Part shown: positions 33,284-36,847 of the stretch, one piece after another
Position numbering within the stretch: the first letter of the stretch is position 1
Layout: every line of letters starts with the position of its first letter
From: Clostridiales bacterium
Lineage (GTDB): Bacteria; Bacillota; Clostridia; Oscillospirales; Feifaniaceae
Length of the DNA stretch: 43,049 nucleotides
Reading direction: 5' to 3'
NCBI GenBank assembly: GCA_012719075.1
Contig: JAAYBB010000038.1
Location: 1-43,049 of the forward strand
The notes under the pieces: generated by a model
Database searches by the model: none
The model's input: the letters and a program-made list of their open reading frames with translations, nothing else
What the model was told of the DNA's origin: nothing
Program-made: the position numbers and the translations under genes

Positions 33284-34405
33284 ATGTTTACGCTGCAAAG
33301 CCGGCAGGGCACCGCCCGCCGGGGCCGCCTTGAGACGGTCCACGGCCGGGTGGAGACGCCCGCCTTTATGAACGTCGCCACCGCCGCCGCGATCAAGGGG
33401 GCGGTGTCGGCCGACGACCTTACGCACATCGGCTGTCAGGTGGCGCTGTGCAACACCTACCACCTGCACCTGCGCCCCGGCGAGCAGGTGGTCGAGGCGA
33501 TGGGCGGCCTGCGTACCTTCATGGGCTGGCCGGGCCCCACGCTGACCGACAGCGGCGGCTTTCAGGTCTTTTCGCTGGCCAAGCTGCGCCGCATCGAGGA
33601 GCAGGGGGTGACCTTTGCCTCCCACATCGACGGGCGCCGCATCTTCATGGGTCCCGAACAGAGCATGCAGATTCAGGCGGCGCTGGGCTCGACCATCGCC
33701 ATGGCCTTTGACGAGTGCGTTGAAAACCCCTCGCCGCGCGACTACGTGCTGGCCTCCTGCGCCCGCACCACGCGCTGGGCCGAGCGCAGCCGGGCCGAGC
33801 TGGACCGCCAGAACGCGCAGCGGGGCGCCGGACAGCTGCTGTTCGGCATCAACCAGGGCGGCACCTATGCCGACATCCGCGTCGACCACATGAGGCGCCT
33901 GGCCGAGCTGCCCTTTGACGGCTATGCCATCGGCGGGCTGGCGGTCGGGGAGCCGGCCGAGGTCATGTACGAGATCATCGAGGCCGTGGAGCCCCACATG
34001 CCGCAGGCGCTGCCCCGCTACCTGATGGGGGTGGGGACGCCGGACAACCTCCTCGAGGCGGTGCGCCGCGGCGTCGACCTGTTTGACTGCGTCATGCCCA
34101 GCCGCAACGCGCGGCACGGGCACCTGCACACGCGGGCCGGCGTCATCAACCTCAACAACGAGAAGTACGCCACCGACCGGGACCCCATCGAGCCGACCTG
34201 CGCCTGCCCAACCTGCCGGCGCTACTCGCGGGGCTACCTGCGGCACCTGTTCAAGGCCGGCGAGCTGCTGGCCATGCGCCTTTCGGTGCTGCACAACCTG
34301 TGGTTTTACAACCAGCTGATGGCCGAGATCCGGCAGGCCATCGAGCAGGGCGACTTTGAAGACTACTACCGGCGGCACGTACAGGTGCTCAGCCGGCGCA
34401 TCTGA
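33284..34405 (+). CDS. tgt: tRNA-guanine transglycosylase (Tgt)
   Basis: The 373-residue enzyme exchanges guanine-34 for preQ1 in tRNAs with GUN anticodons. Visible are VATPAFMNVATAAA-like start (ETPAFMNVATAA), NTYHLHLRPG, the catalytic Asp region LTDSGGFQVFSL, GSTIAMAFDEC, GGLAVGEP, MGVGTPDNLLEAV, the second Asp in GVDLFDCVMPSRNARHG, and the zinc site CACPTCRRYSRGYLRHL with a later His. ATG 33284 follows GGAGGGG. It follows queA by 22 bp. Confidence 0.97.
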   Translation: MFTLQSRQGTARRGRLETVHGRVETPAFMNVATAAAIKGAVSADDLTHIGCQVALCNTYHLHLRPGEQVVEAMGGLRTFMGWPGPTLTDSGGFQVFSLAKLRRIEEQGVTFASHIDGRRIFMGPEQSMQIQAALGSTIAMAFDECVENPSPRDYVLASCARTTRWAERSRAELDRQNAQRGAGQLLFGINQGGTYADIRVDHMRRLAELPFDGYAIGGLAVGEPAEVMYEIIEAVEPHMPQALPRYLMGVGTPDNLLEAVRRGVDLFDCVMPSRNARHGHLHTRAGVINLNNEKYATDRDPIEPTCACPTCRRYSRGYLRHLFKAGELLAMRLSVLHNLWFYNQLMAEIRQAIEQGDFEDYYRRHVQVLSRRI

Positions 34406-34424
34406 GCCGAAAGGGGGAGGCGGG

Positions 34425-35165
34425 ATGGAGTACGACGTGCTGTCGGCCTTTTACGACCGGCTGGTCAACGCCGACTATGCGGCGCTCTACGCCTATTATC
34501 GGGCCATTTGGGCGCGCTACGGCTGCAGCCCCGAGGTCGTGCTGGACCTCGGCTGCGGCACCGGCAACCTGCTGCCCCACCTCGAGCAGGCACACCAGGT
34601 CATCGGCGTGGACATCTCGGCCGAGATGCTGAGCGCCGCGCGCGAGAAGGCCGCGCCCGAAACCCTGCTGCTGCAGCAGGACATGCGGGCGCTCGACCTC
34701 TACGGCACCGTGGACGCCGCAGTCTGCGCACTGGACGGCATCAACGCGCTCGAGGACGGGCAGGCCGTGCTCGAGACCCTCTCGCGGGTCAACCTGTTTT
34801 TGTCAAAGGGCGGGCTGTTTGTCTTTGACGTCAACACGCCCTACAAGTTTAGGCAGGTGCTGGACGGCGCCGCCTTTGTCTACGACACCGAGGAGGTCTA
34901 CTGCGTCTGGCAGAGTGCGCTGCAGGGCAAAAGCTGCGCCTTTTGGCTCGACTTCTTTGTGCCGGATGGCCGCGGCCGCTACGAGCGGCGGCAGGAGGCG
35001 CTGGAGCAGCGGGTCTACGAGCTCGAAGAGCTCGAGCAGTTGGTGGCGCGCAGCGGGCTGGAGCTGCTGGCGGTGCTGGGCGATCACAGCCTGGAGCCGC
35101 CCGGCCCGCAGGAGCAGCGGGTGTTCTTTGTGACCCGCAAGGGCAGGGACGCGCCGAACCAGTAA
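34425..35165 (+). CDS. Class I SAM-dependent methyltransferase
   Basis: The 246-residue protein has a Rossmann methyltransferase core with motif I VVLDLGCGTGNLLPHL near residue 37, the acidic loop VIGVDISAEML, LLLQQDMRALDL, and a C-terminal beta-rich part (VYCVWQSALQGKSCAFWLDFF). The N-terminus YDVLSAFYDRLV is common in a Firmicutes group of unknown substrate. A GGGGGAGG site precedes ATG 34425. It ends the spoIID-queA-tgt cluster; downstream is the hairpin array. The acceptor is unknown. Confidence 0.85.
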   Translation: MEYDVLSAFYDRLVNADYAALYAYYRAIWARYGCSPEVVLDLGCGTGNLLPHLEQAHQVIGVDISAEMLSAAREKAAPETLLLQQDMRALDLYGTVDAAVCALDGINALEDGQAVLETLSRVNLFLSKGGLFVFDVNTPYKFRQVLDGAAFVYDTEEVYCVWQSALQGKSCAFWLDFFVPDGRGRYERRQEALEQRVYELEELEQLVARSGLELLAVLGDHSLEPPGPQEQRVFFVTRKGRDAPNQ

Positions 35166-35170
35166 ACAGA

Positions 35171-35755
35171 GTTTAGGGGGGATTCCATCCCCCCGAAATA
35201 CGAGCATCGAACCCTGCCGGGTTCTCGCTCGATACCCCCCTCGCGTGCGCACGGCGCACGCGGTCGCCGGCGAACTGCGCCGGCGGGCCCTGGGTGCCCT
35301 TCGGCGAAGTGAATTCGCCTTCGGGCGGATTGAGGTCTAGGGGGTACCCGTACCCCCTAGATACGCGGCTTGCGCCGCGATACCCCCGGCAAACGAGCCA
35401 AGGTTTTGGCTCGTTTGGGCACCCGCCATCAGGCGGGATGCCTTAGTGGTGTCCTTCAAATAAGTGCGCTTATTTGAAGGACGGATTTAGGTCCAGGGGG
35501 GATTCCATCCCCCCTAAATACGAGCATCGAACCCGGCAGGGTTCTCGCTCGATACCCCCCTCGCGTTCGCACGGCGCACGCGGTCGCCGGCGAACTGCGC
35601 CGGCGGGTCGAGGTGCCCTTCGGCGAAGTGAATTCGCCTTCGGGCGGATTTATATTCCCCCTGGATACGGGCGCTAACGCGCCCGATACCCCCGGCAAAC
35701 GAGCCAGGGTTTTGGCTCGTTTGGGCACCCGCCATCAGGCGGGATGCCTCGGCCG
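35171..35755. repeat. Duplicated array of perfect hairpins, non-coding
   Basis: A block of about 300 bp is present twice (offset 320 bp at the left end, 306 bp at the right). Each block is a chain of palindromes with almost no spacer. Copy 1 holds: GGGGGGAT/ATCCCCCC (35176-35194); CGAGC and GAACCC with GGGTTC and GCTCG (35201-35231); GCGTGCGC/GCGCACGC (35243-35261); CGCCGGCG/CGCCGGCG (35265-35285); GGCGAA/TTCGCC inside GCCC/GGGC; TCTAGGGGGTAC/GTACCCCCTAGA (35336-35361); CGCGGC/GCCGCG; AACGAGCCAA/TTGGCTCGTT (35391-35414); CCCGCC/GGCGGG; and a 14-bp stem at 35451-35482. Linkers such as GATACCCCC recur. No credible ORF is present. Confidence 0.85.
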
Positions 35756-35930: not shown

Positions 35931-35947
35931 AGGTGCGATTTTCTCCC

Positions 35948-36847
35948 ATGGACAACTTTGTCAAGCTGCTCTCCGCCAACGGCTTTGTGCACGCCATGGC
36001 GCTGGACTCCACGGCCATTTGCGAGCAGGCGCGGCGCATCCACGACACCACGCCGGTCATGTCGGCGGCGCTGGGGCGCACGCTGACCGCCGCCTCGCTG
36101 CTGGGCTGCCGGCTCAAGGAGGCGCAGCACACGCTGACGCTGCAGATCAAGGGCGACGGGCCGGCCGGGCTGCTGCTGGCCGTGTCGGACGCCGCCGGAC
36201 AGGTGCGCGGCGCCCTGCACAACCCGCATGTCGAGCTGCCGCTGAACGCCGCGGGCAAGCTCGACGTGGGCGGCGCCGTCGGCAGGGAGGGCTACGTCAG
36301 CGTCATCAAGGACCTGCGGCTCAAGGAGCCCTATATCGGGCGCACCCCCATCGTGTCGGGCGAGATCGCGCAGGACATCACCCACTACCTCGCGGTCAGC
36401 GAGCAGACGCCGGCCGCCGTGGCGCTCGGGGTGCTGGTCGACCGCGACTGGAGCGTCAGGCGGGCGGGCGGCTTTCTCGTGGAGCTGCTGCCGGGGGCCG
36501 ACGAGGAGACCGTCGCGGCGCTGGAGCGCGCGCTTGCGGACATCCGGCCGGTGACCGAACTGCTGGAGGCGGGGGACACGCCCGAGGACATCCTGCGCCG
36601 GCTGCTGGCGGAGTTTGAGGTCACGGTGCTGGAGCGCGGCGAAAAGCGCTATGTCTGCCCCTGCTCAAAGGCGCGGGTGGAGCAGGTGCTGCTCTCGCTC
36701 GGGCACAGCGAGCTGGCCCGCCTGGCCGCCGAGCAGCCGGTCACCGAGGTGGGCTGCCAGTTCTGCACCAACAAGTATACTTTTACGGACGAGGAGCTGC
36801 GGGCACTGCTGCACTCGGCGACTGAGCCGGCACAGGACGACGATTGA
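35948..36847 (+). CDS. hslO: Hsp33 redox-regulated chaperone (HslO)
   Basis: The 299-residue holdase is activated when oxidation releases zinc from four C-terminal cysteines. The N-terminal domain shows MDNFVKLLSANGFVHAMAL, TAASLLGCRLKEAQHTLTLQIKGDGPAG-like core (LQIKGDGPAG) and GYVSVIKDLRLKEPYIG. The switch motif is complete: VCPCSKARVEQVL and VGCQFCTNKYTF (CxC and CxxC). ATG 35948 fits the family start, though the GGAAGG site is far (15 bases); an in-frame GTG at 35933 is the alternative. The last codons overlap the first 49-bp tandem repeat. Confidence 0.94.
   Translation: MDNFVKLLSANGFVHAMALDSTAICEQARRIHDTTPVMSAALGRTLTAASLLGCRLKEAQHTLTLQIKGDGPAGLLLAVSDAAGQVRGALHNPHVELPLNAAGKLDVGGAVGREGYVSVIKDLRLKEPYIGRTPIVSGEIAQDITHYLAVSEQTPAAVALGVLVDRDWSVRRAGGFLVELLPGADEETVAALERALADIRPVTELLEAGDTPEDILRRLLAEFEVTVLERGEKRYVCPCSKARVEQVLLSLGHSELARLAAEQPVTEVGCQFCTNKYTFTDEELRALLHSATEPAQDDD

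Follow-up and report, generated by a model that had tools for sequence, protein, structure and literature searches.

Introduction

Repetitive hairpins are known from several genomic settings. REP, BIME and REPIN elements are dispersed intergenic palindromes, many of which lie just 3' of genes; REP and REPIN carry a GTAG or CGTC tag and are linked to RAYT, a Y1 transposase. In a survey of the REP type, stems showed alternative complementary residues and G-U pairs were often seen, and the phyla listed for GTAG and CGTC REPs do not include Firmicutes (PMC3733652). The pneumococcal BOX element (boxA-boxB-boxC) is a modular composite intergenic repeat of a Firmicute with a variable number of modules, for which co-transcription is possible and whose mobilisation, if any, is in trans (PMC3049150). 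In sponge mitochondria, dense families of short, mobile-looking tandem hairpins have conserved stems and variable loops (PMC2800124). Compensated stem changes are usually taken as proof of a functional RNA. Template switching also creates and maintains hairpins, a process demonstrated chiefly for rRNA and microRNA genes; a compensated change combined with a loop inversion, named as its strongest sign, was extremely rare there (Monttinen and Loytynoja 2022, PMC8794818).

Here, we describe a block of hairpins at positions 35171-35755 of the window, the whole 43,049-nt stretch of DNA that was analysed, from a Clostridiales bacterium of the Feifaniaceae. Its element resembles REP, BIME and REPIN in being dispersed, palindromic and intergenic, but its multi-hairpin units are larger, from 70 to over 250 nt, and G-U pairs are rare in them, as opposed to often seen in the REP survey. 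Like BOX it is a modular composite Firmicute repeat with a variable number of modules, and it is set apart from BOX as described by its host order, its modules and its nearly sequence-free stems between constant linkers. It shares dense tandem hairpins with the sponge repeats and reverses their pattern, its loops being kept on differing stems. We consider it probable that the block consists of two tandem mosaic copies of a non-autonomous REP/BOX-like element, and that DNA-level processes, namely hairpin-templated copying and the exchange of hairpins among copies, renew the stems of this element. This repeat family of common gut bacteria appears not to have been described before; literature searches for such a repeat in these genera returned no relevant account.

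Results

Two mosaic copies of a multi-hairpin unit

The block starts a few bases 3' of the stop codon of a methyltransferase gene (34356-35165) and is followed by an Hsp33 gene (35933-36847). That it is a duplicated hairpin block, as an earlier note on this DNA had claimed, is confirmed by reading the sequence and by repeat alignment: copy 1 (35171-35443) and copy 2 (35490-35749) are about 96% identical, with common ungapped segments of 113 nt at 96%, 39 nt at 100% and 66 nt at 98%. Its folding energy is -367.6 kcal/mol, as against -264 +/- 7.9 in 100 shuffles (z = -13.1). The block makes up 1.4% of the window's length and holds 9 of its 34 non-overlapping perfect hairpins of at least 8 bp, while shuffled windows contain 3-11 such hairpins in total each.

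Each copy comprises two concatenated core units plus additional hairpins, a composition that the earlier note had missed. The core unit runs hairpin 1, ATA, hairpin 2 and ATACCCCC; the consensus is YAGGGGG..CCCCCTR for hairpin 1 and CG-variable stem-CG for hairpin 2, and the conserved linkers of the element are CCTRGATA and ATACCCCC. A covariance model of the core has four matches in the block, one per unit (35169-35239, 35333-35387, 35489-35559 and 35636-35693), all features given here being on the forward strand.

In copy 1, the first unit opens with hairpin 1, TTTAGGGGGGAT-TCC-ATCCCCCCGAAA (35172-35198), and hairpin 2, CGAGCATCGAACCC-TGCC-GGGTTCTCGCTCG (35201-35231), closed by the constant linker ATACCCCC (35232-35239). 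There follow hairpin 3, CGCGTGCG-CACGG-CGCACGCG (35242-35262), whose loop CACGG also occurs in other genera, hairpin 3b, CGCCGGCG-AACTG-CGCCGGCG (35265-35285), and hairpin 4 (35296-35326), whose apex GAAGTGAATTC sits on other stems in other genera. The second unit has hairpin 1, TCTAGGGGGTA-CCCG-TACCCCCTAGA (35336-35361), hairpin 2, CGCGGC-TTGC-GCCGCG (35364-35379), the same linker (35380-35387), and two more hairpins, CAAACGAGCCAA-GGTT-TTGGCTCGTTTG (35390-35417) and CCCGCC-ATCA-GGCGGG (35422-35437). A private 32-nt hairpin, GTCCTTCAAATAAG-TGCG-CTTATTTGAAGGAC (35451-35482), separates the copies; other genomic copies of it have compensated stems and the inverted loop CGCA.

Copy 2 repeats this order with hairpin 1 (35493-35515), hairpin 2 with the inverted loop GGCA (35521-35551), hairpin 3 with one mismatch (35562-35582), hairpin 3b (35585-35605) and a hairpin 4 with apex GAAGTGAATTC identical to that of copy 1 (35615-35645). 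In its second unit, a remnant of hairpin 1 (35651-35665) precedes hairpin 2, CGGGCGC-TAAC-GCGCCCG (35668-35685), and the last two hairpins, CAAACGAGCCAG..TTGGCTCGTTTG and CCCGCCATCAGGCGGG (35696-35743).

Readings of the block as a CRISPR array, terminator, riboswitch or known small RNA were rejected. The earlier note had rightly dismissed a CRISPR array, there being no equal repeats with unique spacers; no Rfam covariance model scored above its gathering threshold for the element, and no intrinsic terminator (a GC stem followed by a T run) lies within the block.

Arms change together, and one loop is inverted

As the earlier note had reported, one hairpin is changed on both arms, CG-CGGC-TTGC-GCCG-CG in copy 1 (35364-35379) against CG-GGCGC-TAAC-GCGCC-CG in copy 2 (35668-35685), and is flanked by GATA and ATACCCCC in either copy. 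Elsewhere in the window's genome (G000:C29:44559-44595), an identical copy of this copy-2 stem and its linkers (CCCCCTGGATACGGGCGCTAACGCGCCCGATACCCCC) is present, so the two-arm change is most simply an exchanged hairpin. Hairpin 2 of the first unit has an inverted loop, which the earlier note had missed: GAACCC-TGCC-GGGTTC (35209-35224, copy 1) is the exact reverse complement of GAACCC-GGCA-GGGTTC (35529-35544, copy 2), and its flanks keep their place in both copies.

Pairing is not always kept. It was correctly seen before to be lost in one other stem, GCGTGCGC in copy 1 (35242-35262) versus GCGTTCGC in copy 2 (35562-35582). The accompanying statement that neither arm alone had been lost around the changed stem does not hold, since immediately 5' of it copy 2 lacks the entire 5' arm of the hairpin TCTAGGGGG/CCCCCTAGA (35336-35361 versus 35651-35665).

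The element is a dispersed family of Oscillospirales-type hosts

A search for the linkers in the genome and its relatives, as the earlier note had proposed, revealed that the block is far from unique. The window's genome (1.88 Mb in 92 contigs) gave 28 BLAST matches, several of them at contig ends. A pattern in which only the linkers are fixed and the stem is free, CCCCCTRGATACG-N4..34-CGATACCCCC, has 20 matches in this genome and none in the reversed-pattern control, and it occurs in at least 108 stretches of the GTDB collection. Among the matches listed, all hosts are of Oscillospirales type: Flavonifractor, Pseudoflavonifractor, Angelakisella, Butyricicoccus, Oscillibacter, Sporobacter, Agathobaculum and metagenome bins, the first two, Angelakisella and Butyricicoccus being represented by isolates. 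The spread is patchy: the covariance model is matched in 14 of 245 relatives (5 genera in 3 families) and in none of seven other genomes of the window's own family, while in one related genus all 25 genomes carry 1-27 copies apiece. The isolate of Angelakisella massiliensis has dozens of elements, some in tandem arrays with a period of about 150 bp.

Could the block be an assembly artefact, or a set of chance palindromes of a GC-rich genome? That the window is one of 92 contigs in a draft assembly, with several matches at contig ends, would fit an artefact. The two window copies differ, however, and elements are present in the isolates Angelakisella massiliensis and Flavonifractor plautii ATCC 29863 and in a single-contig genome (G335); shuffles and reversed-pattern controls yielded none of these elements. 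An artefact or a chance origin is thus scarcely credible.

Two further arrangements were observed. Head-to-tail arrays with a period of about 149-150 bp and up to 10 near-identical copies occur in Angelakisella massiliensis (L102:5009-5824) and at L138:562-1982. In the window's genome, a mosaic repeat of about 475 bp, 89% identical among three loci (L009, L011 and L019), extends the hairpin block on both sides, and its extra hairpins also differ on both arms (AAAAATCAG/CTGATTTTT versus AAAAACCGG/CCGGTTTTT).

Elements favour gene ends. By a purpose-written codon-model gene caller, which replaced a naive longest-ORF call that had placed 61 of 112 elements in ORFs, the upstream neighbour gene lies on the same strand for 65 elements and on the opposite strand for 31, and 21 of 99 elements begin within -6 to +6 nt of a stop codon. 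This position relative to genes resembles that of REP and BOX elements (PMC3733652, PMC3049150). A REP/REPIN mobilised by RAYT would likewise be palindromic, intergenic, dispersed and often placed after stop codons. The conserved linkers of the present element, however, lack the GTAG or CGTC tag, and the REP-associated transposase that the earlier note had suggested looking for is absent: a search for Y1_Tnp (PF01797) gave no match in the window's genome (92.8% complete) or in 10 of 18 other carriers, including carriers with 13-25 copies. RAYT is therefore a highly improbable mover of this element.

Stem sequence is nearly free and pairing is kept

Between the constant linkers, stems vary almost without limit and remain paired. 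Hairpins are formed by 70 of 72 distinct linker-to-linker gaps. In 137 different versions of hairpin 2, Watson-Crick pairs fill 96% of the lower-stem cells, despite a near-free stem sequence. Across 88 gaps, the Watson-Crick fraction of the four outer free pairs is 0.96, compared with 0.38 (maximum 46%) when the arms are re-dealt, and these outer-four positions hold 32 distinct 4-bp arms. In a wider set of hairpin 2, 96.8% of cells are paired versus 32-53% with partners slid by 1-3 columns, the covariation score is 0.578 versus 0.146 in shuffles, and many columns use all four Watson-Crick pair types. Hairpin 1 has at least 10 different inner triplets, mostly matched. In the downstream hairpins, it is loops such as CACGG, GAAGTGAATTC and AGGCRCATGTCCT that are kept on differing stems. 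At the position of hairpin 4 (for example L087 versus L105), the apex loops GAAGTGAATTC, AGGCRCATGTCCT, GAGGCAAAGCCCC and GGCGTACACGCC are interchangeable.

Mismatches and coupled changes point to the DNA level

Such covariation would ordinarily suggest a structured RNA, located in a 3'-UTR or acting as a small RNA, with stems that covary through selected folding and copies that spread as useful or parasitic RNA. Constant loops and linkers on variable stems, the strong covariation and the bias to same-strand gene ends with starts close to stop codons all accord with it. Selected RNA stems, however, tolerate G-U more than A-C, and on the element strand no such excess is seen. Among 685 lower-stem cells of hairpin 2 there are 4 G-U and 12 A-C, whereas the acceptor and T stems of tRNAs from the same set of loci, used as a control, have 30 and 3. 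Hairpin 1 has 21 G-U and 48 A-C; one recurrent pair (CCAG..CTAG) accounts for some twenty of the latter, and the remainder is near equal. The weak minus-strand wobble excess of hairpin 1 comes largely from that one pair. The CCAG..CTAG pair recurs at many loci and in many genera, as a C-A mismatch that would be a G-U wobble on the opposite strand only.

Orthologous elements were compared as 24 independent pairs whose flanks are 90% identical; there are 45 two-sided compensated changes and 40 one-sided ones, the latter being 11 G-U, 14 A-C and 15 other. From the per-site ortholog change rate, we estimate that about two two-sided changes would be expected by chance. The 45 observed include runs of 3-5 adjacent pairs. 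As read from ortholog pairs rather than from observed mutations, these coupled changes would have arisen in one step, and their direction is likewise provisional. Flank-matched pairs of the same stem include five loop inversions, against 0.66 expected given the number of differences, and the TGCC/GGCA difference between the window copies is one of the five. This count is small, and exchange between paralogs could be another source of inverted loops.

The mismatch spectrum and the ortholog changes, together with the absence of an Rfam family, speak against ordinary selection for RNA folding of the element strand; a weak minus-strand wobble signal is conceivable. Moreover, hairpin 4 and similar stems swap A-rich and T-rich arms between genera, which shows that a terminator role is not kept. 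We therefore regard a structured RNA as unlikely. Of the three mechanisms that the earlier note had listed, it is the one that the data do not support, given the missing Rfam match, the lack of the G-U excess that tRNA shows and the lack of any terminator-like site. Cassette exchange gains from the identical copy-2 stem at another locus of the genome, and template-switch-type renewal gains from the loop inversions and the coupled two-arm ortholog changes.

Hairpins are exchanged and elements turn over at fixed sites

Elements at the groES-groEL junction were compared among species: hairpin 3b is common to them, whereas hairpins 2, 3 and 4 are entirely different. The purH-purD junction records turnover within one genus (g46). 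Three genomes (G060, G138 and G294) have one type of element there and G213 has another; G408 has a truncated element and G088, G404 and G405 a 12-14-nt remnant, all of the G213 type, and G399 has none. Comparison of filled and reduced sites gave no obvious target duplication, the short sites retaining a remnant of one element type. Among the three genomes that share an element type, hairpin 1 shows the symmetric loss of one pair (TAT/ATA to AT/AT) and hairpin 4 a change of TCT/AGA to GTT/AAC. The window's genome, of another family, likewise carries a purH-purD element (L004). This junction is a recurrent insertion site across species and families (L004, L266, L267 and L270-L272).

Exchange of whole hairpins, sequence-free stems, constant linkers, few loop types and a symmetric mismatch spectrum, as DNA would give, would also be expected of a DNA site recognised by its structure, in which a protein binds extruded hairpins, selection keeps the pairing and linker recombination swaps hairpin cassettes. 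Integron integrases bind attC hairpins in a comparable manner. No recombinase is known to be associated with the element (the search covered Y1), no defined cleavage site is apparent and loop inversions require no protein, which makes this reading improbable. We consider it distinctly unlikely, too, that the hairpins form a sequence-independent cassette system, in which folded single-stranded DNA would be recognised by a putative recombinase or replication protein through linkers and loops only, while stems are exchanged and renewed.

Discussion

The reading that we favour is of a dispersed repeat renewed by its own hairpins. During replication, a single strand could fold back and the polymerase could copy one arm from the other, by template switching or cruciform-type recombination, which would make or restore perfect arms in one step and occasionally invert the loop. 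Because hairpin-templated copying would restore both arms at once, it would produce 'covariation' without RNA selection. The constant linkers may act as short homologies for hairpin swaps between paralogs. Template-switch mutations are predicted to give perfect stems, loop inversions and compensated changes made in one step, and the element matches this pattern; it differs from the cases of Monttinen and Loytynoja in that it is a repeat dispersed in bacterial genomes and shows no sign of being selected as an RNA.

Several features would suit more than one explanation. One-sided variants could also be removed by selection for a DNA hairpin. The conserved apex loops and linkers would equally fit protein recognition of RNA or of DNA structure, and a transcribed element, too, might show the same-strand bias to gene 3' ends (65:31). 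The comparisons suggest that template switching is the agent and that no RNA is under selection, and mobilisation in trans is presumed in a like manner.

The element combines very strong covariation with a mismatch spectrum unlike that of RNA, and calls for caution when RNAs are sought by covariation among the intergenic repeats of bacteria. It also lends itself well to testing the idea that hairpins arise and persist through template switching.

How the copies travel can be outlined in part. Phage or recombination would spread them, as would a putative factor acting in trans. The analysis detected no transposition event, no target duplication and no gene that mobilises the element, and searches of plasmid and phage collections by DNA similarity gave no match to the block. 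Matches of a relaxed linker pattern in viral contigs were mostly due to chance, few being retained by the covariance model. An IMG/VR contig of 9461 bp has one copy between late phage genes (L309:4814-4990), which makes phage a plausible vehicle. The genes on this contig include those for a terminase large subunit, tail-fibre assembly and an endolysin, and a terminal fragment of methionyl-tRNA synthetase suggests the edge of a prophage.
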